DNA of 64,000 bases, from NCBI RefSeq assembly GCF_900105055.1, contig NZ_FNTA01000004.1, forward strand, positions 310,001 through 374,000. The letters run 5' to 3'. Origin of the DNA: Amycolatopsis lurida. Its GTDB lineage: Bacteria; Actinomycetota; Actinomycetes; Mycobacteriales; Pseudonocardiaceae. The notes below the pieces were generated by a model. The model was not told the DNA's origin. It searched no databases and was given only the letters and a program-made list of their open reading frames with translations. Positions 25,762-58,460 of the stretch are shown here, one piece after another (the first letter of the stretch is position 1; every line of letters starts with the position of its first letter). The position numbers and the translations under genes are program-made.

Positions 25762-26717
25762 CCACCCCCGTGACCATCGACGACATCCGTGACGCCGCCG
25801 CCCGTCTGGCCGGTGTCGCGCACCGGACCCCGGTCGTGCGTTCCCGGACCCTCGACGACCTCGTCGGCGCCGAGGTCTTCATCAAGTGCGAAAACCTCCA
25901 GCGCGTCGGGGCCTTCAAGTTCCGTGGCGCGTACAACGCCGCTTCGCGACTTTCGCCGGAACAGCTGGCCAAGGGCATCGCCGCCTACTCGTCGGGGAAC
26001 CACGCCCAGGCCGTCGCGCTCGCCGCGCGGGAACTCGGGAGCAGCGCGGTCATCCTGATCCCGGAGGACACCCCGCAGTCCAAAAAGGACGCCACCGCGG
26101 GCTACGGCGCCGAGATCGTCACCTACGACCGGTACACCGGCGACCGCGTCGCGATCGGCGAGGCGCTGGCGGCCGACCGCGGTCTCGCGCTCATCCCGCC
26201 GTACGAACACCCGCACGTGATCGCCGGCCAGGGCACCGCGGCGCTGGAACTGCTGGAGGACACCGAATCACTGGACACGCTCGTCGTCCCCGTCGGCGGT
26301 GGCGGTCTGATCGCGGGCAGTTCGACCGCCGCGAAGGCGGTGCGGCCCGGTATCCGGGTCGTCGGTGTCGAACCTGCCGCGGGCGACGACACCAAACGCT
26401 CACTGGAGGCCGGGGAGCGCGTGTCGATCCCGGTGCCGCGGACCATCGCCGACGGCCAGGCCGCCTCCATTCCCGGTGAACTGACCTTCTCGATCAACCA
26501 GCGGCTCGTCGACGACATCGCGCTGGTCACCGACGACCAGGTCCGGGACGCGATGCGGTTCGCGTTCGAACGGCTGAAGCTCGTCATCGAGCCGAGCGGG
26601 GCGACCGGGCTCGCGGCGCTCCTCAGTGGCCAGGTGCCCGCCTCGGGCCGGGTCGGGGTGATCCTCAGCGGCGGGAACGTGAGCCCGGAACGCTTCGCCG
26701 AACTGATCGCCGGCTGA
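25758..26717 (+). CDS. PLP-dependent threonine/serine or hydroxyaspartate dehydratase (racemase-like, short form)
   Basis: 319 residues, fold type II PLP enzyme without the C-terminal ACT regulatory domain. Key features are the Schiff-base lysine in AFKFRGAYNA (about 54), SSGNHAQAVALAAR binding the substrate carboxylate, and the PLP phosphate loop VGGGGLIAGSS. The length and lack of ACT domain match serine racemase, catabolic threonine dehydratase and threo-3-hydroxyaspartate ammonia-lyase rather than biosynthetic IlvA. The product of dehydration is an enamine that the operon's RidA would clear. Which hydroxy-amino acid is used cannot be told; the YheO-type regulator hints at an unusual or D-configured one. 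Confidence 0.85.
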   Translation: MTTPVTIDDIRDAAARLAGVAHRTPVVRSRTLDDLVGAEVFIKCENLQRVGAFKFRGAYNAASRLSPEQLAKGIAAYSSGNHAQAVALAARELGSSAVILIPEDTPQSKKDATAGYGAEIVTYDRYTGDRVAIGEALAADRGLALIPPYEHPHVIAGQGTAALELLEDTESLDTLVVPVGGGGLIAGSSTAAKAVRPGIRVVGVEPAAGDDTKRSLEAGERVSIPVPRTIADGQAASIPGELTFSINQRLVDDIALVTDDQVRDAMRFAFERLKLVIEPSGATGLAALLSGQVPASGRVGVILSGGNVSPERFAELIAG

Positions 26718-26771
26718 CCCTTCGCAATTAGTCCTCTCAATGCGAGCGCTCGTGAACGACCTGCGGTGTGC

Positions 26772-26832
26772 ATGCGTCGCGAAAGCCACTTTCGGGACGT
26801 CTGATGTCCCGAAAGTGGCTTTCGCGACGCAT
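26772..26832. repeat. GCGAAAGCCACTTTCG hairpin, copy 1
   Basis: Perfect 27-bp stem: arms 26772-26798 and 26806-26832, 7-base loop. Each arm contains the self-complementary CGAAAG-CCA-CTTTCG, so alternative cruciforms are possible. It lies 55 bases after the dehydratase stop in a gene-free stretch (26718-27107). Confidence 0.85.
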
Positions 26833-26878
26833 CCGGCAGGCGCTGACATCTCGTTTCACCGCCGCGCCCACCGGCCGA

Positions 26879-26933
26879 CGTTGCGAAAGCCACTTTCGCA
26901 ACGTTGAAGGTTGCGAAAGTGGCTTTCGCAACG
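26879..26933. repeat. GCGAAAGCCACTTTCG hairpin, copy 2
   Basis: Perfect 24-bp stem: arms 26879-26902 and 26910-26933, 7-base loop GTTGAAG. The core is the same as copy 1 (GCGAAAGCCACTTTCG) with different flanks. Two such stems 50 bases apart form a double terminator or a repeat array between convergent genes. Confidence 0.85.
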
Positions 26934-26950
26934 CCTTGACTAGGGTCTAG

Positions 26951-27104
26951 CGCGTGACTCGCGTGATCGGACACGGCACTCACGTGATTGAACGCGTATC
27001 TCACGTGATTGGAGGCGTAACTCGATGTGCGGCCGCTGATCACGCGAGTTACGCCTTCAATCACGCGAGATACGGGTCTGATCACGCGAGTTCGGCGTTC
27101 GGTC
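26951..27104. repeat. CTCGCGTGATC repeat cluster, copy 1
   Basis: Three loose units of about 20-24 bases with the core CTCGCGTGATC / CTCACGTGATTG run rightwards, then three run in reverse (GATCACGCGAGTTACGCC type). The whole can fold into one large imperfect hairpin. It reaches to within a few bases of the stop of the convergent acyltransferase gene. A second cluster of the same family is at 41153-41252. Confidence 0.7.
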
Positions 27105-27107
27105 ACA

Positions 27108-28085
27108 TCACAGGCCGAGCCCACCCGCCAGCACCGGCCAGGAGTTCCGCAGCGCCCGTTGCCAGTACGGCCAGCTGTGCGTGCCGTCGCCGTAGTAGTC
27201 GACGGTCGCCGGAATCCCCTTGGCCTTCAACCGGTCCGTGAAGCTCACCGAGGAAGCCAGCGCCTGCGGTTCGAAGATGTCGGACTGCCCCGGCGGGTCG
27301 AGCGGACCGGTCTTCCCGTTCCCGCAGGAGATGTACAGCGCCGTGCCGCGCAGGCCGTCGACGTTGTCGTACGGGTTGTTCGCCGTCCAGAGCGGCCGCA
27401 TCCCCCAGGAGTCGCCCCAGAGTTCGAGGTAGTTGAAGATCCCCGCGCGCGCCAGGATCCCCTGGATGAACAGCGGGGCTCCCTGGTTGAGAGTGTTCGG
27501 CACCCCGCTGTAGGACGCCGCCGCGGCGAACATCCCCTTGTGCTTGTACGAGTACGCGAGCGCGCCGTAGCCGCCGATCGACAGTCCGGCGATCGCCCGG
27601 CGCGGACCCGCCCGGTAGCCGCGTTCGACGATCTGCCGCACCTCCAGGGTGTGGAAGGTGTCCCAGTCGGGAGTGCTCCGGAGCCCGAAGTTCCACCACT
27701 TGGTGTACATCCCGGCGGGCCCGCCGGTCGGCATGACGACGAGGGCGTCCTTGTCCGCCATGAACGCCTTGACGTCGGTGAACTGGTCCCACGAGCGGTA
27801 GTCGACCGGTTCGCAGCAGCCGTGCAGCAGGAACAACGTCGGCCAGGTCCGCGTGGGTTGCGCGGCCCAGCCCGCCGGGACCAGCAGGCGGACCATGCCG
27901 GTGGTGCCGAGCGCGGGCGAACTGATCTTCAGGTCGACGGTGCGCGCGTCCAGCCAGGTCTCCTCGACGAGCTTCGCGCCGTTGTCGGCGGTGACCGGCG
28001 CGGGCGCCGCGCTCGCGGGGACCGGGCTTCCGAGCAGGGTCGCCATGGCCAGTGCCAGCAGACCCCACCGCCGGGTTCGCTTCAT
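27108..28085 (-). CDS. Secreted antigen-85-type acyltransferase/esterase
   Basis: 325 residues with a Sec signal peptide (MKRTRRWGLLALAMATLLG, cleavage near ASA-APA). The mature part is an alpha/beta hydrolase of the esterase D / antigen 85 family. The nucleophile elbow is AIAGLSIGGYGALAYSY. LWGDSWGMRPLWTANNPYDN and LYISCGNG match the Ag85 sequence order. The catalytic histidine is in DGTHSWPYWQRAL, almost the Ag85 motif GTHSWEYW. In mycobacteria Ag85 transfers mycolic acids to trehalose and arabinogalactan outside the membrane. A start site with AAGGAG lies 13 bases after the carboxylase gene, so it is the last gene of the FAAL-PKS-carboxylase operon. It is the probable exporter-side acyltransferase for that product (inference). 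Confidence 0.85.
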   Translation of the reverse strand: MKRTRRWGLLALAMATLLGSPVPASAAPAPVTADNGAKLVEETWLDARTVDLKISSPALGTTGMVRLLVPAGWAAQPTRTWPTLFLLHGCCEPVDYRSWDQFTDVKAFMADKDALVVMPTGGPAGMYTKWWNFGLRSTPDWDTFHTLEVRQIVERGYRAGPRRAIAGLSIGGYGALAYSYKHKGMFAAAASYSGVPNTLNQGAPLFIQGILARAGIFNYLELWGDSWGMRPLWTANNPYDNVDGLRGTALYISCGNGKTGPLDPPGQSDIFEPQALASSVSFTDRLKAKGIPATVDYYGDGTHSWPYWQRALRNSWPVLAGGLGL

Positions 28086-28098
28086 CGTTTCTCCTTGC

Positions 28099-29664
28099 TC
28101 ACAACGGGATGTTTCCGTGCTTCTTGGCCGGAAGGGTCTGCCGTTTGGTCCGCAGCGCGTGCAGCGCCCTCGCCACCTGAAGGCGGGTTTGCGACGGCGC
28201 GATGACCTGGTCGACGTAGCCGCGTTCGGCCGCCAGGTAAGGGTTCGAATGCCGCTCGCGGTACGCGTCGGTGAGCCGTCGCTGTTCGGCCGACCGTCGT
28301 TCCGACGGCAGGGCCGCCAGTTCGTGCCGGTGCAGCACCCGCACCGCGCCCTCGGCGCCCATCACCGCTATCTCCGCGGTGGGCCAGGCCAGGTTGACGT
28401 CCGCACCGAGATGTTTCGACCCCATCACCGCGTAGCCGCCGCCGTAGGCCTTGCGGATCACCACGGTCACCTTCGGCACCGTCGCTTCGGCGTAGGCGTA
28501 AATGAGTTTGGCGCCGCGCCGAATGATCCCGTGCCGTTCCTGCGCCTCGCCGGGCAGATAGCCGGGCACGTCGGCGAGGGTGAGGATCGGGATGCCGAAG
28601 GCGTCACAGAACCGGACGAACCGCGCGGCCTTCTCCGAGGCGTCGATGTCGATCACGCCCGCTCGATGGCGTGGCTGGTTCGCCACGACACCGACCGTGC
28701 GGCCCCGGATCCGGCCGAACGCGCAGATCATGTTCGGCGCGAAGCCGCTGTGCACCTCCATGAAGTCGCCGTCGTCGACGAGACGCGAGATCACCTCGGC
28801 CATGTCGTACGCCTGGTTCAGCGAATCGGGCACCAGCCGGTCGAGTTCGAGGTCGGCGGCGGTGAGTTCGGGCGCGGTCTCGTCGGCGTATTCCGGGACG
28901 GCGTCGAGGTTGTTGGACGGCAGGTACCCGAGCAGAGTCCGCACCCAGTCGATGGCGTCGTGCTCGTCGGCGGCACGGTGGTGGGCGTTCCCGGAGACCT
29001 CGCTGTTCACCGCGGCGCCGCCGAGGCGCTGGGCGGTGACCCGTTCACCGCTGACGGCGTGGACGACGTCCGGCCCGGTGACGAACATGTGCGCGGTCTC
29101 GTCGACCATCACGGTGAAGTCGGTGATCGCCGGCGAGTAGACCGCCCCGCCCGCGCAGGGGCCCATGATCAGCGAGATCTGCGGGATCACACCGGACGCC
29201 AGCGTGTTGCGCCTGCCGAGTTCGGCGTAATAGGCGAGCGAGACGACGCCTTCCTGGATGCGGGCGCCGCCGGAGTCGTTGATCCCGACCACGGGACAGC
29301 CCAGCGTCATCGCCAGGTCCATCACCTTGAGGACCTTCTCGCCGAAGACCTCGCCCATGCTGCCGCCGAAGATGGTGAAATCCTGGGAGAACACGCAGAT
29401 CTGCCTGCCGTCGACGGTGCCGTGCCCGGTCACCACGCCATCGCCGTAGGGCCGGTTGGCGTCCATCCCGAATTCGGTGCACCGGTGCCGGGCGAACTGG
29501 TCGAGTTCGACGAAGGAACCCTGGTCCAGCAACAACTCGACACGTTCGCGTGCGGTCAGCTTGCCCTTGGCGTGCTGCCGGTCGACGGCCCGCTTCTCCG
29601 CGGTCCGCAGATCCTCCCGGCGGGCGGCGAGGTCGGCGATCCGGAACGCCGTCGTGTCGGTCAT
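28099..29664 (-). CDS. Acyl-CoA carboxylase beta subunit (PccB/AccD-like)
   Basis: 521 residues with the two crotonase-like halves of the carboxyltransferase subunit. The N-half has [40 protein letters not shown], then [21 protein letters not shown] (acyl-CoA oxyanion loop) and [12 protein letters not shown]. The C-half has [21 protein letters not shown] and [18 protein letters not shown]. It carboxylates a short- or long-chain acyl-CoA using biotin from an alpha subunit encoded elsewhere. The ATG overlaps the PKS stop by four bases (ATGA), so its likely job is to supply the extender unit for that synthase, as AccD4 does for Pks13 in mycobacteria. Chain-length preference cannot be read reliably here. 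Confidence 0.9.
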
Positions 29665-32600
29665 GGCCGCGCCGCCTTGGGTGCCCCGAGCCGGGCCGCG
29701 AGGGCCGCGGCGACCGTCTCGACATGCGGCGGGTCGATCATCGAAAGGTGGTCACCCGGCACCCGCACGACCTCCAGATCGGGGCAGAAGGTGTCCCAGC
29801 CCAGAGCGTCGTCGGTGCGCAGGTACCGCGGATCGAGGGAGGTGGTCAGCGGATGCGGCTCCTGCGCGCGCAGCAGCAATACCGGCCCGGCATAGGATTC
29901 CGGCTCGTACCGTTCGGCGACCCGTGCGTCCATATAGGACTCGTACTGATGCCGCAGCACGCCGTGTCCCAGCTCGGGCACCTGAGCGGCCAGCCTGCCG
30001 ATCACCAGCCGGATCTGTTCCTCGTCGCCGAGCCGGGCGAGCTCTTCACGCGGGATGTCCAGCGGGACACCGTAGGTGCGCTCGATATGCTCCGCAAACC
30101 GCTCGAACCGGTCCAGCAGAATCTCCTGAGCCGGTTTCCCCGGCGCGGGCAGCGGCAGGATGCTGTCGATCAGGAACACGAGAGCGACCCGCTCCCCTGC
30201 CGCGGTCAGCCGCCGAGCGGTCTCGTAGGCGAGGCAGCCGCCGAACGACCACCCGCCCAGCCGGTACGGGCCCTGCGGCTGGATTTCCCGGATCAGCTCG
30301 ACGTAGCACTCGGCTTTGTCCTCGACGGTGTCTTCGTCGTCGATCCGTTCGAGCCCGTAGACGGCTCTGTCCTCGGGCAGCAGGCGGACCAGCCCCTCGT
30401 AGACGCTCGTCGGACCGCCCGCCGGATGGAACAGGAACACCGGATCCGTACCGCCTTCGCGCAGCGGCCGGACAGGACAGCCTCCGCGTCCTTCGATCTC
30501 GTCGCGCAGCAGGTCGGCCATCGCGGCGATCGTCGGTGTGGCGAAGAGCCGCTCGGGAACGGCTCCCAGCCGCCCGGCGATCACATCCCGCAGCCGCTCC
30601 GCCGCTTCGGCGTCGCCACCGGCGGCGAAGAAGTCCTCGTGGACGCCGGGCTCCGCGCCACCGAGTTCGGCCTGCCAGTGCCGGGCGATCCAGCGTTCGG
30701 CCGGATCGCGTGGCCCGACGGCCGTGACCGGGCCGGCGGGCCGGGTGCCTGTCTCACCGAACCCCGCCTGATCGGCGAGATGGCCGGCGACCTCGGCGAG
30801 GCCCGCACCCCGCAGCAGCAGCGGGATCGGCAGTTCCAGGCCGAAGTCTCGTTCCACGACTCCCTTGGCACGCAGGGCGGCGAGCGAGTCCAAGCCGAGC
30901 CGGGTGAGCGGCGTCCGCCGGTCGATCTCGTCCGCGGCGAGGCCGAGCATCCCGCCGACGAGCCCGGCGAGGTAATCGGCCAGCATCTCGCGGGCGGCTT
31001 CCGGGAGGACCGCCCGCAGCGCGTCCAGCCCGTCCCAAGTGGACGGTCCGGCGGCCTGCTCCTCCCCCGGTACCAACATCTCGAAGAACGGCCGTCCGGC
31101 CAGCCGGGGGAACAGGGCGAGCACGGTCCCGGCATCGACCCTGGCGATCCCGGTCGACGCGCGGTCACGGCGCAGCACGGCCTCCATCGCCGCCAGCGCC
31201 TCCTCGGTGCCGAGCGGCTCGAGCACGGGGTTGCGGCTGCCGACGGCCGCTCCGGCTTCGCCCCACGCTCCCCAGCCGATGGTCGCCGCCGGCAATCCCG
31301 CGGCGCGGCGCCACGCGACGAGCGCGTCCACCCACGCGTTCGCGGTGGCGTAGGCGGTCTGTCCCGGTGACCCGAACAACGCCGCGGCCGACGAATACGT
31401 CAGCCACCAGTCGAGTTCGTGTCCGGCTGTCGCCTCGTGCACTCGCCACGCCCCCAGCGCTTTCGCGCGCCAGACAGCCTCGACGGCGTCGGCGTCGAGG
31501 CTGACGGCGGCGCCGTCGGACAGCACACCGGCCGCGTGAAGCACCCCGCGCAACGGCAGGCCGCCTTCGGTCGCGGCCGCGACCAGCGCTTCGGCCGTAC
31601 CCGGCTCGGCGATGTCACCCGTCACCACGCGGACGTCGACGCCCTGATCTCGCAGATCCGCCAGAAGCGGCTCGACGGAAGGGCGCGCACCACGCCGTCC
31701 GGAAAGGACGAGCCTGGTCGCGCCGCGCGCCGCCAACCAGTCCGCCGCGACCAGGCCGAGGCCGCCGAGACCACCGGTGATGACGTAAGCGCCGTCGCAC
31801 ACCACGGTTTCGTGGCGAGGTTCGCCGAGTGTCGGGCGGGCCAGCGACCGCGTGTACCGGACGCCCTCGCGCCAGGCGATCTCGTCGTCCGGCGCGTCCG
31901 CGCGGATCTCCGCCACCAGCCTGCCGACCCACAGGTGGGCGGGGTCCGGCTCGGCATCGAAGTCGATCTGGCTCGCCCGCAGTTCGGGGTGTTCGAAGGC
32001 GAGGACGCGGACCAGCCCACGCAGCCAGGCCTGACCGGGGTCGCCGCGCTCGCCGGGTTCGATGGCCCAGGCACCCGTGCTGACGAGCCACAACCGCGGC
32101 GCGGCTTCGGCCAGTTCGGCGAGGACGCCGGAGAACTCGGCGACCCTCGCCGCCGCGCTCATCGGATCGGGCCCGTCCGAAATCCCGGCGCAGACGAGGA
32201 CTCCCGCCACCTCGCGGGATCTCAGGACTTCCGCGAGCGCCTTCCGGTCCCCCGGCCGGACCGTCACCAGCTCGTCCCCGGCTTCGGTGAGCCGCTCGCG
32301 CAACGCCGTCAGCCACGGCGCGTCTTCGTGCAGCACGGCCCAGCGGCGCGAGCCCGGCGCCGCCACCGGCAGGTCCGCCTCCCGCCAGACCGTTTCGAAC
32401 AGCAGCTCCGCCATGGGCACCGGAAGCGCCGAACGCTGGAACCGGCGGCAGTAGACCTCGCGGAACTCGACCAGCACGACATCGTCGGCGTCGACCAGCT
32501 GGACACCGCCCACCAGGCCGTCGCCGGCCGGATCAACCGACTCGAGGACCGCGTCGACCCGGACACCGCGGCGCGGATCACCGGCGAGGACGACCTCGCC

Positions 32601-35600
32601 CAAGGTCAGCGGCAGGAACACGCCGTCGGCTTCGCGCAGCGCGTCCCCGGCCGCGGCGGCCAGCGCGTGCAGGCAGGCGTCGGCGATCACCGGATGCAGG
32701 ATGAAGGCCGGATCGTCGGCGGGCAGGGTGATCGACGCCGAGGCACGGCCCGGCGCCGCCAGAACGTCGCGTAGCCCACGGAAAGCGGGACCGTAGCTCT
32801 GCCCGGCCCTGGCCAGCGACTGGTAGAGGTCGACCGGCCGGGCGTCGTCGCCGACCGGGCCGAACGGCACCACCGGGGTGACCCCGTCGCGGACGCGGGC
32901 GGTGGCATGCCGCACCCAGCCGCCGTCCGCGGACCGCGCGTAGACGTCCACGCTTCCGTCGCTCAGGCTGGTCGTCACCTCGGTGTGGGCGGCGAGTGGA
33001 AGGACCCGGTGCAGTTCGAGACCGCCGATGCGCACTCGCCCGGCGGGACGCAGGACCGTTTTCGCCGCCGCGAGCGCGAGTTCGAGGAATCCGGCGGCGG
33101 GGAACAGCGGGACACCCATCGCCGCGTGGTCGGCCAGCCACGGCAGCACCTCGGTCCCCACGTCCGCGCGCCACAGGTGCCCGCCGGTCGGCTGTTCGAT
33201 GTGGACACCCAGCAACGGATGCGCGCCGGCGGCCCGGGCCGCCGGGCGCCGCGGCCAGAACCGCCGGTGCCGCCAGCGCGGACCCGGCAGTTCCACCGGA
33301 AGCGGACGGGGGCCGCCGTCGTCGAGCACGACGGGCTGCCCGAGAGTGTGGAGCCGGGCGAGCGTGGTCAGGAACGCCAGTCGCTCGTCGCCCTTGCGGC
33401 TCGCCGTCGGAAACGCGACCGCGCCGGTGCTCTGCTCGATCGCGGCCAGTGCCACCGGATGCGGCGAGATCTCGACGAACACGCCGTATCCGTCGGCGGT
33501 CGCCGCCGCCAGCGCCTGGCTGAAGCGCACGGGACGGCGCAGATTCGCCGCCCAGTACTCGACGTCGAACACCACTGACCTTTGTGGATCATCGAGAACG
33601 CTGCTGTAACAGGGAATCCGCACCGGTCGCGGGGGCAGGCCGCCGAGTTCGGCGCGGAGCCTGCCGAGAACCGCGTCAACGGCTTCCGAATGGCCCGCAC
33701 CCCCGACCGGCAGCCGCTTCGCGAGCCTGCCGAGGCTCTCGACGTGCGAGACCAGCGCCTCGACCTGTTCGGCGCCGCCGCTGACGGTGCACTGGACCGG
33801 CGAGGCGTAGACCGCGACGGTGATCCCGGGGAAGTCCGTTTCCAGGTCGGCGAGTTCGGCCGCGGACAGTTCGACCACCGCCATCGCGCCGTCGCCGGAC
33901 GCGTCGACCTCGGCCAGCAGCCGGGAGCGGATGGCCATCACGCGAAGGCCGTCGGCGACGTCCAGCGCCCCCGCGACGACGGCGGCCGCGACCTCGCCCA
34001 TCGAATGCCCGAGCACCGCGGCCGGGACGACGCCGTGCGCGCGCCAGAGCCCGGCGAGGGCCAGCTGCATGCCGAACAACGCGAGCTGTGTCGCCGCGAG
34101 ATCCGGCAGGTCCCGCGCGCCGGAGAACACCTCGCTCAGGGTGAAGCCCGCTTCGGCACGGAACACCGGATCGAGTGCCTCCACCTCGGCCCGGAACGCG
34201 GGCTCGGTGCGCAGCAGGAGGCGGCCCATCCCAGGCCACTGGGAGCCGTAGCCGGAGAAGACGAACACGACGCCCGGCACAGGTCCGGCCTCGCCGAAGA
34301 CGACGTCACCGCTCGCGCTTCCGGCGGCCAGTTCCCGCAACGCGGAGGCCACCCGTTCGCGTCCCTCCGCGACCACCGCGCCCCGGAGGGGTAAATGGTC
34401 ACGGCTCCGGGCCAGTGTCGCGGCGACCGTGTCCAGCGGGATCGAGCGGTGGGCGGGATCCTCCAGCCAGTCCGCCAGATCGGCCGCCCGCGCCCGGAGC
34501 ACCTCGGCCGACCGCGCGGACAGCGCGAAGATCCGCGGGCGCCCGGTCTCCGTCCCGCGAGCGGCGAACGACGCGGCAGGCCATTCTTCGAGGACCACAT
34601 GGGCGTTGGTGCCACCGAAGCCGAACGCGGAGACCCCGGCGCGCACGACGTCGGTGTAGCGCGGCCAGTCCGTCGCGGTGTCCACCACCCGGAGGCCGAG
34701 ACCGGTGAAATCGACATGCGGGCTGGGTTCGTGATGACGCGGGGTCGGCGGCAGCCGCCGGTGGACCAGCGCGAGGACGACCTTGATCAGCCCGGCCATC
34801 CCGGCCGCGCCCTCCAGATGGCCCAGGTTCCCCTTCACCGAGCCGATCAGGAGCGGGCGGGCGGGTTCGCGTCCGGCTCCGAGCACCTCGCCGAGCGCGC
34901 CCGCCTCGATCGGATCCCCCACCTCGGTCCCGGTCCCGTGCGCCTCCACGTAGTCCACAGAGGACGGTTCGACACCCGCCGCCGCGTACGCGTCCCGCAA
35001 CAGGTCGGCCTGCGCGCCGGGACTGGGCGCGACGAGACCATTGGACCGGCCGTCGGAGTTGACCGCGCTGCCGCGGATCACCGCGAGCACGCGGTCCCCC
35101 GCACGACGGGCGGCCTTCAGCGATCTGAGCACGATCACGCCGCAGCCTTCACCTCGGGCGATGCCGTCGGCGGCGGCGTCGAACGGTTTGCAGTACCCGT
35201 CCGGGGCCAGTACCCCGGCCCGCTGGAAGGACGCGGTGACCACCGGCGAGAGCAGCAGGTTCACCCCGGCGGCGAGCGCCGTCCCGCATTCGCCGCGGCG
35301 CAGGCTCTGCACCGCTTGATGCACCGCGACCAGCGACGACGAGCACGCGGTGTCGACGGTGAGACTCGGCCCGCGCAGATCGAAAAAGTACGACAGCCGG
35401 TTGGCGGCGATACTCGTCGCGGCACCGGTGGCGGACCAGACGTCGACGGTGGAGGGATCGGCCATCGTCAGGTGGCCGTACTCGCCCGCCGAAAGCCCGA
35501 CGAACACCCCGGTCCGGCTTCCCCGCAACGTGGACGGCGGGATCCCGGCGTGCTCCAGCGCCGCCCACGCCACTTCGAGCAGCATCCGCTGCTGGGGATC

Positions 35601-36080
35601 CATCGCTTCGGCCTCGCCCGGGGTGATGCCGAAGAACTCGGCGTCGAAACCGGCGATGTCGCCGAGGAACCCGCCGCGCGAGGGGATCTCCCAGCGGTCC
35701 TCCGGAACGTCGCGGATGCCGTCGCGGCCGGCCTCCAGGAGACGCCAATAGCGCTCCGGGGAGTCCGCGCCGCCCGGCAGGCGACAGCCGACGCCGACGA
35801 TTGCGATCGGTTCCTCTTCACGGCCTTCACCGCGCGCGAGCGTGGAGTCATCCACAGTGGACAGACGCGCGGCGAGGGCGGTGATCGTCGGGTACTGCCA
35901 CACCAGGGTCGGCGGCAACGGACGGCCGAGATGCCGTCCCAGCTCCGCCGCCAGTTCCATCGACTCCCGCGAGGAAAGCCCGCTCTCGTGCAGCGGCCGG
36001 TCCGGATCGACATGCTCCGCGGGCGACCCGGTCCGCTTCGCCACCCGCGCGATGAGCCAGGCACGGATCTCCGCGGTCAC
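29661..36080 (-). CDS. Type I polyketide synthase, Pks13-like layout with extra DH and KR
   Basis: 2139 residues from a GTG at 36080 that overlaps the ligase stop (GTGA). Domain order with approximate residues: N-terminal ACP (1-75, [15 protein letters not shown], serine present); KS (88-510, Cys in VDTACSSSL about 245, His in EAHGTGT and KGNLGHLEG); AT (590-880, GHSMGE about 692); DH (940-1215, [10 protein letters not shown] and DACLHAL); KR (1400-1620, TGGLGGLG about 1437, Tyr in QTAYATANA about 1575); ACP (1690-1770, GLDSLAAL about 1731); NRPS-style carrier (1790-1860) reading [14 protein letters not shown], where the phosphopantetheine serine is replaced by alanine; and TE (1870-2120, [11 protein letters not shown] about 1946, His in GDHLSM about 2111). 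No ER. One extension cycle is expected: a ligase-loaded acyl chain condensed with a carboxylated unit, reduced and dehydrated, then released. The specificity motif of the AT reads GAGHS, neither YASH nor HAFH. Confidence 0.9.
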
Positions 36081-37837
36081 CCGAGCCGCCGCGCGGTCAG
36101 CGAACCGTCCAGATAGGACTGCCGGCACCGGGCACGACTGATCTTGCCGCTGGAGGTGCGCGGCACCTCGCCCGGGGCGAGGAAGACCACGTCGTGCGGC
36201 CGCAGACCGTGCACGGCCGAGACCGCCCTCCGGATCTCCGTGGTCGCCACGGCGAGGTCGGCCCCGGTCTCCTTGGCACGCTCCACCAGCACCACCGCCG
36301 CTTCACCGTCTTCGCGCTCGATCGCGAAAGCCGCGGCGGAATGCGGCCGGACCGCGGGATGCGTCTCCACGGTCTGTTCGATGTCCTGCGGGTAGTGGTT
36401 CCGGCCGTCGACGATGACGAGATCCTTGAGTCTGCCGGTCATGAACAGTTCGCCCTCGTACCGCACGCCGAGATCGCCGGTCGCGAGCCAGCCCGCGCCG
36501 GACTCCGGATCGATGGGTGGCAGGCCGAACACGCCCTCGGAAGCGGCGGGCCGCCCCCAGTAGCCCACGCCGACGTTCGGGCCGTTGACCTGGATCTCCC
36601 CCACCCTGCCCGGTTCGACCAGCGCGCCGGTGACCGGATCGGCGATGCGGACCCGTTGTCCCACCGGGAATCCGCAGGAGACGAGCGTGGTGGCCGCCGC
36701 GCCGGGCAGTGCGGGCGTCGCGAGTCCGGCGGCGAGCCGGTCGCGGTCGAAGGCGACTTGCCGTGGTGCCTTGCCCGCTTCGGTGACGGAGACGAGCACT
36801 GTGGCCTCGGCCAGTCCGTAGGAGGACCGGTGCACCTCTGGGCGCAGCCCGCATTCCTCGAAAGCGCCGTGGAACTTCGCGATGGTCGAAGGAAGGACCG
36901 GCTCGCTGCCGTTGATCAGTGAGACGACCCGGCTCAGTTCGAGGTAGCTCTTCTCGTCCTCGGTGACCCGGGAAGCGGCATAGGAGTACGCGAAGTTCGG
37001 TGCCGCGCTGATCGCGCCGGGGCTGGCCGAGAGGGCGCGCAGCCACCGTGACGGACGTTCCAGGAAGGCGCGCGGATCCATCAGGACCGACGCCGCCCCC
37101 GCCGCCAGTGGCGCGCCGATCCCGAGGATCAGGCCCATGTCGTGGAAGAGCGGCAGCCAGCTGACGGTGGAGGTCGTCCCGGTTTCGATCGCGTAGGCGT
37201 CACAAGCCTGACGGGCGTTGGTGAGCGCGTTGCGGTGGGTCAGCATCACGCCCGCCGGCGTCCGCGTGGAACCGGACGTGTACTGCAGGTACGCCACTCC
37301 GTCCGGTTCCGGTCGCGGCCAGGAGCGATCACCGGCCGCGACCGGAGCTGTGGTGTCGACGGCGAGCACGGCGGGCCGCTCGAAATCCGTCGAGGCGAGG
37401 AAACCGGCGGCTTCGCCGAGTCCGTCGGTGGTCGTGAGCACGACCCTCGGGGCGCAGTCGGCGAGCACGGCGGCCAGCCTGCCCGCGTGCCCGGGGAGGC
37501 CCGGGGAAAACAGCGGGACCGCGACCAGCCCTGCTCGGATCGCGCCGAGGAAGGCGACGACGTAATCGACGGACTGCCCGGCCAGGATCGCGGCCCGGTC
37601 ACCCGGACCGGTGAACCCGGTCAGCCGGATGGCGAGCGCGTCGACCCGGTCGTCGAGTTCGCGCCAGGACAGGGTGATCGCCCGGCCGTCCGCCCCGGCT
37701 CGATGGTCGAGGTAGGTCACCGCGACGTCGTCGCCGAGCCGCCACGCCCAGTACCTCAGCAGCGTCGCGAACGACTCCCCGCCGCGTGCGTCGTCCGGCG
37801 CGTGGGCGGCGACGACCGATTCCGAAATGGTTTCCAT
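36077..37837 (-). CDS. Fatty-acyl-AMP ligase (FAAL, FadD32-like)
   Basis: 586 residues from the ATG at 37837; the frame extends further upstream but through the promoter. The adenylation signature is YLQYTSGSTRTPAGVMLTHRN (about 170-190), followed by SWLPLFHDMGLILGI, the S-W-L-P-x-x-H-D-M-G-L motif characteristic of FAALs, then the C-terminal GDLGVRYEGELFMTGRLKDL and GRNHYPQDIE. FAALs activate long-chain fatty acids as adenylates and pass them straight to an ACP instead of CoA. The next gene, overlapping by four bases, begins with an ACP, which fits FadD32 feeding the N-terminal carrier of Pks13. First gene of the lipid operon. Confidence 0.92.
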   Translation of the reverse strand: METISESVVAAHAPDDARGGESFATLLRYWAWRLGDDVAVTYLDHRAGADGRAITLSWRELDDRVDALAIRLTGFTGPGDRAAILAGQSVDYVVAFLGAIRAGLVAVPLFSPGLPGHAGRLAAVLADCAPRVVLTTTDGLGEAAGFLASTDFERPAVLAVDTTAPVAAGDRSWPRPEPDGVAYLQYTSGSTRTPAGVMLTHRNALTNARQACDAYAIETGTTSTVSWLPLFHDMGLILGIGAPLAAGAASVLMDPRAFLERPSRWLRALSASPGAISAAPNFAYSYAASRVTEDEKSYLELSRVVSLINGSEPVLPSTIAKFHGAFEECGLRPEVHRSSYGLAEATVLVSVTEAGKAPRQVAFDRDRLAAGLATPALPGAAATTLVSCGFPVGQRVRIADPVTGALVEPGRVGEIQVNGPNVGVGYWGRPAASEGVFGLPPIDPESGAGWLATGDLGVRYEGELFMTGRLKDLVIVDGRNHYPQDIEQTVETHPAVRPHSAAAFAIEREDGEAAVVLVERAKETGADLAVATTEIRRAVSAVHGLRPHDVVFLAPGEVPRTSSGKISRARCRQSYLDGSLTARRLG

Positions 37838-37939
37838 GGCCCCTCGTCGTGACGATTCGTGCAGGAGCGGGTGAATTCGGAACGGCGCCGTTGCCGAAAG
37901 CGGATTCCATTCCGGAGACCGTTCTTTTATCTGCCCGGA

Positions 37940-37969
37940 ACTGTATTGACGTCCCGGGAAGAGTGTCAA
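37940..37969 (-). promoter_or_regulatory. Promoter and operator of the FAAL-PKS-carboxylase-Ag85 operon
   Basis: On the minus strand, TTGACA (37969-37964) and TACAGT (37945-37940) are spaced 18 bases, a near-consensus promoter rare in such GC-rich DNA. An inverted repeat TTGAC...GTCAA (37946-37950 and 37965-37969) brackets a CCCGGG centre and covers the -35 region. A leader of about 95 bases reaches the ligase ATG. The adjacent LuxR-type protein is a candidate regulator. Confidence 0.6.
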
Positions 37970-38095
37970 TGAAAGGATGATGGAACGCCGGCGAAAGCGC
38001 GGACGTGCTCACGGGGACGTGAGAAAGGGGGCACTCCGCTTGTCACTTCGGCACGAACTTCGGCGCGGGCGGATCGGCAGAACCCCGGCCACGCC

Positions 38096-38121
38096 CGTGT
38101 CGTCCGTCCAGTCACGCGTGA
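38096..38121. repeat. Solo copy of the GGACGGACGACACG repeat
   Basis: At least 25 bases starting CGTGTCGTCCGTCCAGTCAC are identical to part of the cluster at 10406-10534 (there at 10492). It lies 23 bases past the stop of the LuxR-type gene. The rest of 37970-38143 holds no gene. Confidence 0.7.
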
Positions 38122-38143
38122 TCGCCACTCGAGCACCGGCGAT

Positions 38144-39061
38144 TCAGAGCCACCCCTGGCGCGAAGCCTGCGCTCCGAGCTGGAACCGGGTCCGCGCGCC
38201 GAGCAGTTCCTGCAACCGGCTGATCCGCCGGAGCACCGTTCGCTCACTGATGCCGAGCTCGCGCGCGATCGCCTCGTCGGTCAGGCCCCCGCTCAGCAGC
38301 GCGAGCAGGCGGCGCGTGGCGACGGTCGGTTCCTGCGCCGCTTCCGCCTCGTCCGGACCGCCCGCCCGCACCGGCACGGCCATCCGCCAGAACGATGCGA
38401 ACAACTCGATCAGCGCGCTCAGCAGCATCGACGGATGGATCAGCAGGGCGAGCACGTCACCGGCGTCGGAATTCGGGACGGCGATCAGCGCCCGGTTGCC
38501 GTCGGCGATCACCAGCTTCAGCGGCAGCCCGGGGAACACCCTGGCCTGCTCCCCCAGGGCGATACTCGACTGCACCTGGGCGAACCCGTCGTCGTGCTGC
38601 AGCACGGACGAGTCGTAGACGACGCGGTACGCGATGCCGCGCGCCATCGAACCGGGCTGCACCGTGCTCACTTCGGCCTTCGGACTCATGTACGACCCCG
38701 GGTCCAGCGCGACGATGTCGACGGCCGCCTGGGTCTGCATGGCTTCGAAGGTGGCGATCACCTCGTCCCGGCTGCGCAGCACTTCGACGAAGTCCGCGTC
38801 CCGGCCCGTCCGCAGCGAGTAGGCGGCGCCGAGCACCTCGGCCGCTTCCCGCGCACGGATCGCCGCGGCCTCGTGCTGCGCCGCGAACGCCGACAGCGCC
38901 GCACGCGGCGGGCACACCTCGACCCCGGACGCACCCGCCCGGACCAGGCCGAACCGCTCCAGCTCCGCCAGCTCGGCGCCGGGCGTGATCGGACGCCCGT
39001 CCAGCAGGGCGCGGTACAACTGCTCGGCCTCCATCGACAGGCCCCGCGACTCGGCGAGCAT
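38144..39061 (-). CDS. LuxR-type regulator with TrmB-like N-terminus, beside lipid operon
   Basis: 305 residues from the ATG at 39061, which has GGAGGAGA 6 bases upstream; an earlier GTG overlaps the operator and is rejected. The N-terminus (about 1-60) resembles a TrmB-type winged helix (AEQLYRALLDGRPITPGAEL). The middle is a ligand or phosphatidyl-like domain (YRVVYDSSVL, LPLKLVIADGNRALIAVP). The C-terminal LuxR-type helix-turn-helix (about 245-300) reads LLALLSGGLTDEAIARELGI then SERTVLRRISRLQELLGART. The protein encoded at 59909-60907 shares the same order and many motifs. Same strand as the FAAL operon and directly upstream of it, so it is the likely pathway regulator. Confidence 0.85.
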   Translation of the reverse strand: MLAESRGLSMEAEQLYRALLDGRPITPGAELAELERFGLVRAGASGVEVCPPRAALSAFAAQHEAAAIRAREAAEVLGAAYSLRTGRDADFVEVLRSRDEVIATFEAMQTQAAVDIVALDPGSYMSPKAEVSTVQPGSMARGIAYRVVYDSSVLQHDDGFAQVQSSIALGEQARVFPGLPLKLVIADGNRALIAVPNSDAGDVLALLIHPSMLLSALIELFASFWRMAVPVRAGGPDEAEAAQEPTVATRRLLALLSGGLTDEAIARELGISERTVLRRISRLQELLGARTRFQLGAQASRQGWL

Positions 39062-39095
39062 GACGCTTCTCCTCCCCACCCCGGGATCGATCGAC

Positions 39096-39111
39096 GTGAC
39101 ATCGATGTCAC
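39096..39111. promoter_or_regulatory. Perfect 16-bp palindrome upstream of the LuxR-type gene
   Basis: GTGACATCGATGTCAC is a perfect palindrome 35 bases upstream of the regulator's ATG, with a nearby second palindrome ATCGAT at 39087-39092. Position and symmetry suit an operator for autoregulation. Confidence 0.55.
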
Positions 39112-39187
39112 GATTCACCGTTCTTGAGGGGGAAAACGGCCGGATCGTGCGCCTGGACCGATAACGAAAGCGTCACAGATCATGACG

Positions 39188-39218
39188 GAGAGGCTCCCGC
39201 GAACCGCGGGAGCCTCTC
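39188..39218. terminator. Terminator of the S33 peptidase gene
   Basis: Perfect 14-bp stem GAGAGGCTCCCGCG / CGCGGGAGCCTCTC (39188-39201, 39205-39218) with a 3-base loop, 18 bases after the stop of the minus-strand peptidase gene. Confidence 0.8.
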
Positions 39219-39235
39219 GTCGACACCGTCCGAGA

Positions 39236-41044
39236 TCAGGCGTTGGCGGGCATGCCCTTCTCGTCGGCTTCCGGCGTAGCGGTGCCTTCCAGCAGCTCAC
39301 GGACGATCTCGTTCGCCTTGCGCACCTGGGGCGTGATCATCTTGATCTTGATCTTCCCGTCGTGCCCGAGGTGACCGCCGACCTCGACCGTCTTGTCCTC
39401 ACCCGGCAGCGGCAGGCCCTGGCAGCCGGTGAACTTCTTCTTGGGCGTGAGCCCGGTCTGGAAGTAGGCGACGATCGGGTCGTCGACGCAGTCGGTGTTG
39501 TACGGGAAGATCCCGTGACTGCCTTCGTTGTCGACGCTGATCATCTTGGCGCCCGGCAGGCCCTTCGCGGTGGCGAGCGCGCCCTCGTACGGCGTGGCCG
39601 CGTCGAGTTCGGTCTGCGCGATCAGCAGCTTCGGGAACGTCTTGGCGTCCGGCGCCGGCTTGGCGTTGGCGGTCGGCCAGAACGCGCACAGCGGCGCGCC
39701 CGACAGGGCCATGATCGGCGCGATGAACGGCGCGTTCACGGTCAGATCGGCCTGCCAGAAGTTCCAGTAGTGCAGGTTCTGGTTCCACTGGCCGTCCTGG
39801 CAGCGGATCGCCTCGAACGCGGCGTCCCAGGTCTCGACCTCGGCACCACCCTGGTAGGAGGCCTTGCGCTCGACCGAATCCTTCTTCGCGATGGCCTCCA
39901 GCGCGTTGCCCTTGGCCTTGGTCAGGAACGCCTTGTTCGCGTCGGTCAGCCCGGGAGTGGCGAGCGCCTTCGCGACGACCTGCTCCAGCTTCTCCGCGTC
40001 GGTCCCGGCAGGCGCCGGTCCCTTCGCCAGCGCGGCCACCATCGAGGCCGCGGACGGGTACTGAGACGTGTCGTACATCGCCGGGATGATGAACCACGCG
40101 GCGTAGAGCATGCCCGCGAATTCCCGGGTGCCGCCCGCCTTCTCCCAGTTGCGGCGGATCTCGAGCGGGTCGGTGCCCACCTTGTACTTGGCGTCGTTGC
40201 GCGCGACGTAGGGCAGCAGCGCCTCCTGGAACTGGCGATCACGGCTGCGCGGCTGCAGGTCCCAGGTCTTCTCCAGCGTCGAGCGGCTCGCGTCGGTCGA
40301 CGAGTCGAGCAGGAACCGGTGCGCCTTGGACGGGAACGTGGTGGCGTACCAGGTGCCGAGCCACGTGCCGTACGAGTAACCGATGTAGCTGGTCTTCTTC
40401 TCCCCGAGCAGCACCCGGATGAAGTCCATGTCGTACGCGGTCTGCTCGGTGGTGATGAACTTCGTCAGCGGGTTCTTGAGGCAGCCCTCGACCTTCGCCC
40501 GGCTGATCACGTTCTGGTCCGTGCTGTCCGGGACGGTGTAGCTACAGGTCAGCGGGGTGCTCTGGCCGACGCCGCGGGGGTCGAAACCGACGAAGTCGTA
40601 CTGCGAGGCCAGCACGGGGCTGCGCATCGCCATCGCGGCGCCCCACGGGAGGCCTTCGCCGCCGGGGCCGCCGGGGTTGACCAGCGCGATGCCCTGCCTG
40701 CCGGTGCCGGGGTAGGCGGTCGCGGTCTTGGAGACGCGGACGCCGATGGTGTTGCCGTCCTGCGGGTTGTGCCAGTCACGCGGCACCTGGACGGTGGCGC
40801 AGGCGAGACCCTTGACCTTCTTCAGCTCGGCTTCCGTCGCCGGCGCGACCGAGGGGAACGAGCACTCGCCCCAGGCCACGGCCTGTTTGGCCAGCGCGCC
40901 GGCGAGCGCCGCGGTGTCCGGCTCGGCCTTGACCGCGGGTGCCGCACCCGCTGCCGGGGCCAGCACCAGGCCGGAGGCCAGGAACGCGCCGGCGACCACG
41001 GCCACCGTGCCCCTCCGCGTCTTTCTCGTACTACTGATCACCAT
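39236..41044 (-). CDS. Secreted alpha/beta-hydrolase peptidase, S33 tripeptidyl-aminopeptidase type
   Basis: 602 residues from the ATG at 41044, which has AAAGGG before it; the longer frame upstream runs through repeats. Signal peptide about 1-33 (TVAVVAGAFLASGLVLAPAA). The first half carries WHNPQDGNTIGVRVSKTAT, ALVNPGGPGGEG (oxyanion region), FDPRGVGQSTPLTC and the nucleophile elbow YIGYSYGTWLG (about 223). The C-terminal TAP-like domain has PKLLIAQTELDAATPYEGAL (catalytic Asp) and NEGSHGIF (catalytic His), as in Streptomyces SlpD/SlpE and mycelium-associated tripeptidyl aminopeptidases. It trims peptides outside the cell. Monocistronic. Confidence 0.88.
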   Translation of the reverse strand: MVISSTRKTRRGTVAVVAGAFLASGLVLAPAAGAAPAVKAEPDTAALAGALAKQAVAWGECSFPSVAPATEAELKKVKGLACATVQVPRDWHNPQDGNTIGVRVSKTATAYPGTGRQGIALVNPGGPGGEGLPWGAAMAMRSPVLASQYDFVGFDPRGVGQSTPLTCSYTVPDSTDQNVISRAKVEGCLKNPLTKFITTEQTAYDMDFIRVLLGEKKTSYIGYSYGTWLGTWYATTFPSKAHRFLLDSSTDASRSTLEKTWDLQPRSRDRQFQEALLPYVARNDAKYKVGTDPLEIRRNWEKAGGTREFAGMLYAAWFIIPAMYDTSQYPSAASMVAALAKGPAPAGTDAEKLEQVVAKALATPGLTDANKAFLTKAKGNALEAIAKKDSVERKASYQGGAEVETWDAAFEAIRCQDGQWNQNLHYWNFWQADLTVNAPFIAPIMALSGAPLCAFWPTANAKPAPDAKTFPKLLIAQTELDAATPYEGALATAKGLPGAKMISVDNEGSHGIFPYNTDCVDDPIVAYFQTGLTPKKKFTGCQGLPLPGEDKTVEVGGHLGHDGKIKIKMITPQVRKANEIVRELLEGTATPEADEKGMPANA

Positions 41045-45581: not shown

Positions 45582-47456
45582 TCAGCGACGGCAGGGGTTG
45601 CCCGCCGGATGTGCCGGGGTTCCGTGCACGTCGGCCTGGGACTCCGCGAGCACGATCTTCGCGAGCGCGGTGTCCAGCGCGACGGCCTGCTGCTTCACCA
45701 CGCCGTTCGCCACGGTCTGGCCGTTGAGCTTCAGCGAACCGATGACCAGCGGGATGGTCAGCGGCGCCGACCCGACGGTGATCGACTCGCCGTTGATCTT
45801 CAGCGAGGCGACGTGCGAACTGCCCGCCAGCACCGGCGCGAGCCCGCCCGGCGACGGCTGACAGGTCGCGGTCGCCTGTGACTGGATCACGCCGAGTTCG
45901 ACGGTCAGCCCGAGCGTGCTGATCACCGTCTTGTCGATCTTGGCCGACGCCAGCGCGCGATCGCCCGCGGCCGGAGCCGCCGACTGGTCGTCCGGCGTGA
46001 GATCGGTCGACGCGGTCAGCACCTTGGTGTCGACCTTGATCAGGCCGGCGTTGAGCGTCGCGGCGGCGACGGTGCTGCTGTCGTCGGCACAGGGCAGGTT
46101 CGCCGGGTTGGCCCGCGCCGCGGTCACCCCGAGGACGTTCGCCGCGGTGCCGGTGCAGGAGAAGACGCCGTCACGGTCGTCGTCGACGATCGTGCCGACG
46201 CCGGTCGCGTCGATGAGGCCGGCGCCCGACGGGGCCGAGAGGTTCACCGTGAACGTCTCGTTCGGCTCGTCGACGGTGTCCGGGTTGACCAGGACGGTCA
46301 CCGGTCTGGCCGTCTGGCCGGGAGCGAACGTGACCATCCCGCTCGCCGCCGTGTAGTCGGCGGGCGCGGACGCGGTGCCGTTGGCGGTCGCGTACTGGAC
46401 CGTCACCGGATTCGGGCTGGGGCCGCCGAGCAGCGACACCGTGAACGTCGCCGGCACCTGCGCGCCACCGGAGCCTTCGCCGACGGTCACGTCGTCGATG
46501 CTCAAGCCGAGCACGCGCACGGTCGTGGTCTCGATGTACCCTCGCGAAACCCCGTCGACCTGGTAGTCGACGACGCATTGGTAGGTACCGGGAGCGGCAC
46601 CGGCGGCGGCTTTGATCGTCTCGGTGAACGTGGCCACCCCGCCGCTGGTCACCTTGACGCTGCCCGGATCGTTCGTGGCGGTGAGCTGCGGGTCGCAACT
46701 GGTCACCTTCGGGGTCACCGTGACCTCGATGGACTTGATACCGTCCAAAATGGCCTGGGAGACCTGACCGGCCGGGACGTTGTTCAGCAGCACGCCACCC
46801 GTGGCCGAGGTGATGGCGGAAGCCTGCCCCGTGGCGTCGAGCGCGCCGACGTTGACGGCGACCACGCGGATCTTCGCCGCCTGCAACGCCGCGATGGTCT
46901 GGGCCAGGGTGTGCCCGCCGCTCGGGTCGTGCGACGGCGCGTCGCCGAACCACGCGATGATGCGGGTGCCGTCCGGCCGGAAGGCGACCGCCCCGGTGGC
47001 GAGCTGGTAGAGCGCGTTCAAGTTCGCCTCCGGCGTGTCCCCGCCGCCCGAGGCCGCCCATTGGTTGATCCCCGTCTGGACGGCGGTCGTGTCCCCGGTG
47101 ATGCCCTGATTGACCTTGAACGGCACCGAGTCGGTGAAGTCCTTGTACTCGGCGACACCGAACTGCGCGGTCGGCTGCGCGGCGAGGACGTCGGCGGTGA
47201 TGGCGCCGGCGTTCGTCCGCACGTTGCCGATCGGCCCGCCCATGCTGCCCGTGGTGTCCGCGAGCAGGACGAGGTCGGGATTCGGCGGCACGGCCGAGGT
47301 CGTCACGTTCTTGGTCACGGTCGTGCTCTGCCCCGCGTTCAGGGTGAGATCGAGCGTGGCCGGGTCCACTCCCGGTGGAGCCGCGGCGGCGACCGCGGTG
47401 GAGGCGAGCATCGACGAAACGGCGGCCAGGACGGCGAGCAATGGTCTTCGTGACAT
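45582..47456 (-). CDS. Secreted VWA / Calx-beta / choice-of-anchor P protein
   Basis: 624 residues from the ATG at 47456, with AAAGGGAAG upstream. Signal peptide about 1-25 (LLAVLAAVSSMLASTAVAAA). A von Willebrand A domain (about 50-250) has the metal site LLADTTGSMGG (DxTxS variant) and AWFGDAPSHDPSGGHTL. A Calx-beta domain (about 335-445) has TFTVSLLGGPSPNPVTVQY and NPDTVDEPNETFTVNL. The C-terminal 160 residues match the choice-of-anchor P type (STVAAATLNAGLIKVDTKVL, SLKINGESITVGSAPLTIPL). It is a calcium or metal-dependent adhesion-like surface protein; its ligand is unknown. Confidence 0.82.
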   Translation of the reverse strand: MSRRPLLAVLAAVSSMLASTAVAAAAPPGVDPATLDLTLNAGQSTTVTKNVTTSAVPPNPDLVLLADTTGSMGGPIGNVRTNAGAITADVLAAQPTAQFGVAEYKDFTDSVPFKVNQGITGDTTAVQTGINQWAASGGGDTPEANLNALYQLATGAVAFRPDGTRIIAWFGDAPSHDPSGGHTLAQTIAALQAAKIRVVAVNVGALDATGQASAITSATGGVLLNNVPAGQVSQAILDGIKSIEVTVTPKVTSCDPQLTATNDPGSVKVTSGGVATFTETIKAAAGAAPGTYQCVVDYQVDGVSRGYIETTTVRVLGLSIDDVTVGEGSGGAQVPATFTVSLLGGPSPNPVTVQYATANGTASAPADYTAASGMVTFAPGQTARPVTVLVNPDTVDEPNETFTVNLSAPSGAGLIDATGVGTIVDDDRDGVFSCTGTAANVLGVTAARANPANLPCADDSSTVAAATLNAGLIKVDTKVLTASTDLTPDDQSAAPAAGDRALASAKIDKTVISTLGLTVELGVIQSQATATCQPSPGGLAPVLAGSSHVASLKINGESITVGSAPLTIPLVIGSLKLNGQTVANGVVKQQAVALDTALAKIVLAESQADVHGTPAHPAGNPCRR

Positions 47457-47649
47457 GGACTTCCCTTTCGAGACCCGGCCGGAGCCGGAATACCTGTGGG
47501 CTCCTGAAGAAGACGGAATTTTTCGCATTTCGTTAGCGCGAGAACCGGGCTTCACCCGGAGCGCCCTGTGTCAAGGTTCCCAACGGGGCTGTTACCGAGG
47601 GTCCGGGCTACGCGGACCAGGTGCGCATTGCACCGTCCAGCCGAAGGCG

Positions 47650-58257: not shown

Positions 58258-58460
58258 GGCGTCTTCTCTTCTTTGAGACGGCGGGGAGGGAGCCAGAGCC
58301 GTACGAGCATGCAACAACCCGGAGACAAAACGCAAGAAGTTGACATCTTTCAGAAATTTCTCGACTGCCATCTGCGAGCGCCCGGCCTGGCAGCGACTGC
58401 GCTTACGCACGTACGCCCAGTTTCACCGCTTTTGTTTCCTGCGAACGAATACAAGATCGA

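Follow-up and report, generated by a model that had tools for sequence, protein, structure and literature searches.

A four-gene operon of Amycolatopsis lurida, probably sister to the cassette for mycolic-acid condensation

The 64,000-nucleotide stretch of Amycolatopsis lurida DNA analysed here (NZ_FNTA01000004.1, positions 310,001 to 374,000; hereafter the window, to whose own numbering all positions refer) belongs to a genome assembly of 9.05 Mb and carries an operon of four genes encoding, in the order of transcription, a fatty-acyl-AMP ligase (FAAL), a type I polyketide synthase (PKS), an acyl-CoA carboxylase beta subunit (AccD) and a secreted acyltransferase with the fold of antigen 85 (Ag85) and the mycoloyltransferases. 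Mycolic acids are the waxy lipids found in the tuberculosis group, and fadD32, pks13 and accD4, together with an Ag85-type enzyme, form the cassette for mycolic-acid condensation. Based on the gene order, domains, catalytic residues, specificity motifs and kinship, which were read directly from the sequence, we consider that this operon is probably a sister of that cassette, making a 2-alkyl-2-enoic (or 3-hydroxy) acid for transfer to the cell surface. A related branched lipid may therefore be made, and fixed on the outside of the cell, in bacteria other than the tuberculosis group.

All four genes are located on the minus strand. The FAAL gene (36077-37837) starts with ATG at 37837 and has its stop at 36077, P0004 being a longer open frame from 37969. 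With GTG at 36080 taken as the start of the PKS gene (29661-36080), the FAAL and PKS genes overlap by 4 bases; the mechanical open reading frame begins at 36128, from which the PKS residue numbers are counted. A further 4-base overlap joins the PKS gene to that of AccD (28099-29664, assigned by Pfam, motifs and trees), and a 13-base gap separates the latter from the gene of the Ag85-like protein P0001 (27108-28085, assigned by Pfam, fold and sequence matches). An original prediction, made from the letters of the window, had described these four genes and their 4-, 4- and 13-base junctions, and both its coordinates and its description were correct.

Pfam searches of the PKS detected PP-binding (two stretches), ketosynthase (KS), acyltransferase (AT), dehydratase (DH), ketoreductase (KR) and thioesterase (TE) domains, and together with residue alignment they gave the order ACP-KS-AT-DH-KR-ACP-(carrier-like stretch lacking the serine)-TE, in which ACP is an acyl carrier protein. 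That the enzyme begins with an ACP and ends with a TE had been predicted; Pfam adds KS, AT, DH and KR between them. Relative to the bare ACP-KS-AT-ACP-TE order of Pks13, the core is present, with DH and KR inserted. The N-terminal ACP (35862-36059, minus strand, as for all domains; Pfam stretch 24-89) has Ser53, a serine found in 72/72 distinct PKS rows. The KS (34740-35813) has Cys262, His397 and His437; the AT (33339-34268) has Ser709 and the selectivity motif GAGHS at residues 810-814; the DH (32427-33221) has His1001 and Asp1150; and the KR (31260-31793) has Ser1580, Tyr1593 and Asn1597 with an LSD motif. They are followed by the second ACP (approximately 30819-31088) with Ser1748, a carrier-like stretch (approximately 30489-30818) which reads GGDAEA and has no phosphopantetheine serine, and the TE (29664-30443) with Ser1961, Asp1988 and His2127.

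Two chain-length signatures are shared with the mycolate cassette, as counted over aligned rows (the AT and AccD counts include extra copies of some loci, and catalytic residues were likewise counted over rows). The first is the AT motif GA[GS]H, which was present in 51/72 operon-type rows and all 31 Pks13 rows and in none of 29 other rows; these carry HAFH, YASH and similar motifs, one being gapped at this position. GAGH is read as selecting butyl-, pentyl- or hexylmalonyl units in the part of the primycin paper available (PMC7522111). The second is the AccD pocket, where Gly150 and Ala412 occupy the chain-length positions and where Gly, Ala or Ser plus Ala was found in 70/70 operon rows and 36/36 AccD4 rows. 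Thirty rows were labelled other: 20 have Phe at the first pocket position, 7 are too distant for meaningful alignment, and the remainder are the operon itself again (L003) and two paralogs of the AccD4 clade (L261 and L264). The AccD4, AccD5 and AccB labels of the carboxylase rows, like the gene names of the Mycobacterium tuberculosis mycolate locus, are what we take these proteins and genes to be. The best solved structure for AccD was the stambomycin carboxylase MccB (SamR0483; 5inf/5ini; 812 bits), with the same Gly and Ala positions; according to PMC5187497, its use of longer chains is tied to Gly161 in place of Phe and to Ala in place of Asp421. The pocket residues thus agree with a putative long-chain type of AccD. 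An ordinary propionyl-CoA carboxylase was rejected, as the Phe/Asp signature is absent and the A. lurida genome encodes a PccB-like enzyme separately (L224).

Phylogenetic analysis gave a concordant picture for three of the four proteins. Rows were thinned by k-mer similarity, from 127 to 77 and from 132 to 58 for KS, from 86 to 54 for FAAL, from 122 to 59 for Ag85, and from 121 to 37 for AccD, or to 40 in the main AccD tree. This last tree was built without the distant carboxylases L227-L240, the 58-row KS tree without twelve loci whose KS is distant (L227_165, a very long row, was kept), the AccD constraint test without L180, L181, L262 and L257, and the AccD tree that included MccB without L262 and L257. 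In the AccD tree, operon rows and the AccD4 clade fell on one side (100/99), opposite the PccB-, AccD5- and AccB-like rows; forcing the AccD4 clade together with the PccB/AccD5-like rows gave a p-AU (approximately unbiased test) of 0.017. MccB nested within the operon AccD clade, in a set of 8 rows (96/91). In the KS tree, the operon and Pks13 grouped together (98/78) inside a 36-row clade (100/99) that contains no modular KS row and takes in L177-L179, L185 and L199 in addition. The modular KS rows came from the A. lurida genome, one Mycobacteriaceae genome and a few plasmid records; against these controls a modular antibiotic or siderophore PKS was rejected. The FAAL and FadD32 formed one clade (96/85) that excluded four mycobacterial FAALs (L268, L269, L177 and L178) and more distant ones, and also took in the mycobacterial L271 and L277. 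The original prediction was to fall if KS and FAAL lay inside an antibiotic or siderophore family; instead, all three trees (KS, FAAL and AccD) place the operon proteins with their mycolate counterparts.

Scored per domain, the best solved structure for the KS was Pks13 (492 bits), followed by CurL (450 bits by whole score); 7zma was rejected as the nearest Protein Data Bank KS since its score is the sum over a pair of KS domains (298 and 288 bits). The FAAL has the Pfam AMP-binding and DIP2-like AMP domains, and its best solved structure was FadD32 (5ey9, 420 bits). It was also noticed that L271 and L277, in the Mycobacteriaceae genomes G451 and G303, are FAAL genes beside FadD32 in the tree, the match containing one stop. 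Likewise, three Mycobacteriaceae genomes (G344, G458 and G405; L177-L179) have, besides true Pks13, another ACP-KS PKS whose KS is near the Pks13 group; it adjoins a FAAL in L177 and L178, L179 being a short contig.

The Ag85-like protein begins with a signal-peptide-like sequence and carries Ser169 within GLSIGGYG and His303 within GTHSWPYW. Its sequence matched Corynebacterium glutamicum PS1 with 164 bits and Ag85A with 82 bits, and a fold search with its AlphaFold2 model (mean pLDDT 78.5) returned mycoloyltransferases for all of the first 18 matches. By fold and by its catalytic Ser and His it therefore belongs with the Ag85/mycoloyltransferases, and it is a candidate acyltransferase acting on a surface acceptor. 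The three Ag85 rows L001, L247 and L255 adjoin a PKS of the operon type.

The four genes occur in the same order in 16 of the 18 Pseudonocardiaceae loci fetched (L043-L060), the exceptions being L048, whose stretch starts inside the AT, and L060, which has PKS-Ag85-FAAL without AccD. All ten members of the genus fetched carry them, L048 being seen from the AT onward only, and the Ag85-like protein and its A. roodepoortensis counterpart share 98% identity. When five flanking genes were checked in L041-L060 (about 5 kb on each side), they were present only in L043-L045; the four genes are therefore a conserved unit. Searching with an alignment of the Ag85-like family gave 79 named loci, taken from the 80 best among at least 589 confirmed matches, and 46 of these 79 have a KS of the operon type, 40 of them with a FAAL as well and 24 with AccD in addition; all four genes in one direction were found in 23. 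The PKS-bearing loci included those of Actinokineospora, Saccharopolyspora, Streptoalloteichus, Herbihabitans, Nonomuraea, Streptosporangium, Planomonospora, Pseudofrankia, Frankia, one Streptomyces and one Solirubrobacteraceae metagenome-assembled genome of unchecked binning. Related cassettes thus reach beyond Amycolatopsis, to Streptosporangiaceae, Frankiaceae, a Streptomyces and the Solirubrobacteraceae genome. The four genomes fetched of one genus outside the order of A. lurida (g114 of family f33; L299-L302) all have a compact AccD-FAAL-PKS-Ag85 cassette with a bare ACP-KS-AT-ACP-TE enzyme. In a sample of the class, an ACP-KS match at E <=1e-165 was obtained in 28/394 genomes, eight of them Mycobacteriaceae (f8), and in one of these eight the match lay at the true Pks13 locus. 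That the Ag85-like gene is conserved beside the PKS in related genomes, on which the original prediction also depended, is borne out by the family loci and by the wider survey. As a separate observation, Micromonospora, Streptomyces, Actinomadura and others have Ag85-like genes with no such PKS in the stretch (L120, L126, L127, L129 and L131, among others).

For the chemistry, that is, for each step, the chain lengths, the carrier, the export and the acceptor, we infer the following course. AccD, with housekeeping biotin-carboxylase partners, would convert a medium- or long-chain acyl-CoA into an alkylmalonyl-CoA, and the FAAL would activate a second fatty acid as acyl-AMP and load it onto the N-terminal ACP. 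The AT would deliver the alkylmalonyl unit to the second ACP, the KS would join both chains, and the in-line KR would reduce the 3-keto group. The DH most likely then removes water, giving a 2-alkyl-2-enoic acid, i.e., a dehydrated short mycolate; in relatives with a dead or absent DH, a 3-hydroxy or 3-keto acid would be expected. From the TE the acid may pass to a carrier, for instance trehalose, and after export the Ser-His site of the Ag85-like enzyme may attach it at the surface, where arabinogalactan, another glycolipid or a protein could be the acceptor.

An alpha-branched 2-enoic acid is our first guess at the product because DH His1001 and Asp1150 are kept, together with the KR residues, in 35 of the 36 PKSs of group A, to which the window's belongs (the exception, L121, has neither DH nor KR), and because the dN/dS ratio (nonsynonymous to synonymous substitution rates) over six ortholog pairs was 0.18-0.26 for the DH, like that of the AT (0.17-0.26); for the KR it was 0.11-0.21. 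The same residues bear on the likeliest alternative, in which a silent DH leaves a true short mycolic acid (a 2-alkyl-3-hydroxy acid) as the product, one that routine tests miss. Cassettes of the same family do have a dead or missing DH: in ten Streptosporangiaceae PKS rows the DH His and Asp are gone, L060 and L107 have Tyr/Glu at these positions, and neither DH nor KR was detected by tblastn in L121, in four f33 loci or in a further A. lurida cassette on contig C2. For the ten Streptosporangiaceae rows, in which the KR residues are wholly or partly retained, this combination predicts 3-hydroxy acids, which would be mycolates by structure. For the window, however, the conserved residues and the DH ratio make a silent domain rather unlikely. 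According to PMC8930869, moreover, no mycolic acid was found in A. camponoti A23, and the test reads as including A. pretoriensis DSM 44654, which bears the operon (L099), but it matched known mycolic-acid masses only.

Several findings weigh against a dedicated surface-lipid cassette akin to that of the mycolates. In the genus, an ortholog search (E 1e-30) over the 26 genomes listed found one of at least 61% identity in 19, a distant match in 2 and none in 5, so that it is missing or weak in 7. At the thresholds used, 33 of the 79 Ag85-like loci have no KS of the operon type, although one of them, L148, is a contig of 3.4 kb that bears part of a KS; conversely, FAAL-PKS-AccD occurs without Ag85 within the stretch in L181, L182, L187 and L306, and L189 has neither AccD nor Ag85, so the halves of the cassette can part. 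The PKS scored 1331 bits with the NCBIfam Pks13 equivalog model (NF040607; cut-off 2100, passed in 29 of 200 genomes sampled in the order), paralogs in the same genome scoring 1281 and 1196, and the FAAL scored 503 bits with the FadD32 model (cut-off 975). In the trees, the KS/Pks13 grouping falls below the starred level of support with its inner branch order unresolved, the FAAL/FadD32 clade also takes in two other FAALs of A. lurida (L279 and L282), and the Ag85 rows of mycolate loci lie on one side (100/100) with the operon rows on the other; the operon proteins, judged by this tree, are therefore a sister family of the mycolate-locus Ag85s and not members. The operon holds no exporter gene, and no MMPL-family gene, the only exporter family searched for, lies within 0.8 Mb on its contig; a dedicated MmpL exporter was accordingly rejected, and the claim that the operon is complete from activation to transfer was too strong. 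Finally, no lipid of the proposed kind is reported for Amycolatopsis in the literature covered.

The patchy occurrence in the genus would also suit a secondary-metabolite cluster, in which the TE releases a branched acid or small lipid to be secreted and the Ag85-like protein serves as a tailoring esterase rather than an envelope acyltransferase. The nesting of stambomycin MccB in the operon AccD clade means that one member entered an antibiotic cluster, and PMC5187497, as far as the part available goes, files a single-module Amycolatopsis cluster under polyketide clusters. Since none of the five flanking genes co-travels outside L043-L045, and since the Ag85-like fold best matches mycoloyltransferases, we regard such a cluster as quite unlikely. 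Convergence, with FAAL-ACP-KS modules coming together with long-chain carboxylases on two occasions, might explain the long stems of the AccD4 (0.71) and Pks13 (0.63) clades and the cassettes lacking AccD or Ag85, but it is very improbable given that three separate proteins each group with their mycolate counterpart and that the operon and the mycolate cassette have the two chain-length signatures in common.

A sister of the mycolate cassette therefore remains the preferred reading, and as three proteins are sisters of mycolate ones, shared ancestry fits better than convergence. The original prediction had spoken of a parallel, mycolate-like system: the core of that reading is supported by trees and motifs, but "parallel" understates the kinship of AccD, FAAL and KS, and the in-line KR and DH, which Pks13 lacks, had not been foreseen. 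More broadly, and tentatively, the mycolate cassette could be one offshoot of an older cassette through which actinobacteria make alpha-branched acids of two chains for the envelope; mycolate-free Amycolatopsis, other Pseudonocardiaceae, Streptosporangiaceae, Frankiaceae and some Streptomyces would then acylate their surfaces with short or dehydrated mycolate analogues, and the mycomembrane would have grown from an existing pathway instead of originating within the mycolate group. Extracts of PMC6194230 present rival theories on the origin of the mycomembrane, one called an open question, and find Ag85 genes only in mycolate-positive species at the similarity cut-off used there. A sister cassette in mycolate-free genera, with the same pocket, AT motif and Ag85 fold, would make that origin chemically testable. 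Amycolatopsis is described as lacking mycolates, as had been supposed, in the parts of PMC8930869 and PMC11004387 available; the usual tests in these sources look for known masses or a thin-layer chromatography spot, which the predicted surface lipid would escape. No mycolate-like pathway outside the mycolate group was found in the literature, as covered by top-ranked matches and few subscription papers.

The A. lurida genome has two further cassettes. One (C4:449700-467700, L041) is FAAL-PKS(DH, KR)-Ag85 without AccD, with His in the KR tyrosine column and a GAF-LuxR protein downstream. The other (C2:24001-44000, L042) has a FAAL, a 1398-aa ACP-KS-AT-ACP-TE PKS without DH or KR, and a divergent Ag85-like gene; its KS motif is KTNIAH rather than KxNxGH, and a glycosyltransferase is encoded nearby. 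In the window, a promoter-like site (TTGACA-18-TACAGT, 37940-37969, minus strand) lies 5' of the FAAL gene and is the sole such match in 26600-39300, where shuffles lead one to expect 0.4; a motif match of this kind is no evidence of function. Directly upstream on the same strand is a gene (38144-39118) for a helix-turn-helix protein, a possible regulator; it was rejected as a member of the conserved unit and lies outside it, as it travels with the operon in L043 and L045 only among L041-L060. Also on the minus strand are genes for a protein with Pfam FAD-binding and cytokinin-dehydrogenase domains (13252-14595), a protein with VWA and Calx-beta domains (45582-47555) and a large protein resembling alpha-1,3-glucanase that has CARDB and F5/8 type C domains (54577-58410).

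Compared with the mycolate cassette of Mycobacteriaceae, the operon has in common the FAAL, the ACP-KS-AT-ACP-TE core, the order FAAL-PKS-AccD, the AccD pocket of a small residue plus Ala, the GA[GS]H motif of the AT and a secreted enzyme of the Ag85 fold. It differs in the in-line KR and DH, in the Ag85 gene directly after AccD, in scores below the Pks13 and FadD32 cut-offs, in an Ag85-like protein outside the mycolate-locus clade and in a genus described as mycolate-free. By these signs it resembles the mycolate cassette in its working, and, on the tests applied, its proteins are not members of Pks13, FadD32 or the mycolate-locus Ag85s. The closest solved relative of P0001 by both sequence and fold is C. 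glutamicum PS1/mycoloyltransferase A (6sx4), whereas identity in the fold match is 31-32% and the 6sx4 chain is about twice as long.

Stambomycin MccB shares the Gly and Ala pocket positions, and its place within the operon AccD clade suggests a source for stambomycin's medium-chain carboxylase. We know of no Ag85 partner for it, and it differs from the operon AccD in that it supplies a large macrolide PKS, at one of its modules (PMC5187497). The same source, in the part available, mentions a cryptic cluster with a single PKS module and homologues of MccB and SamR0482 as widely conserved in Amycolatopsis. It draws no link to mycolates, and the words Pks13, Ag85, antigen 85 and esterase do not occur in its main text. 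As that cluster and the operon have in common the genus, the single PKS module, the MccB-type carboxylase and the acyl ligase, the cryptic cluster is probably this operon.

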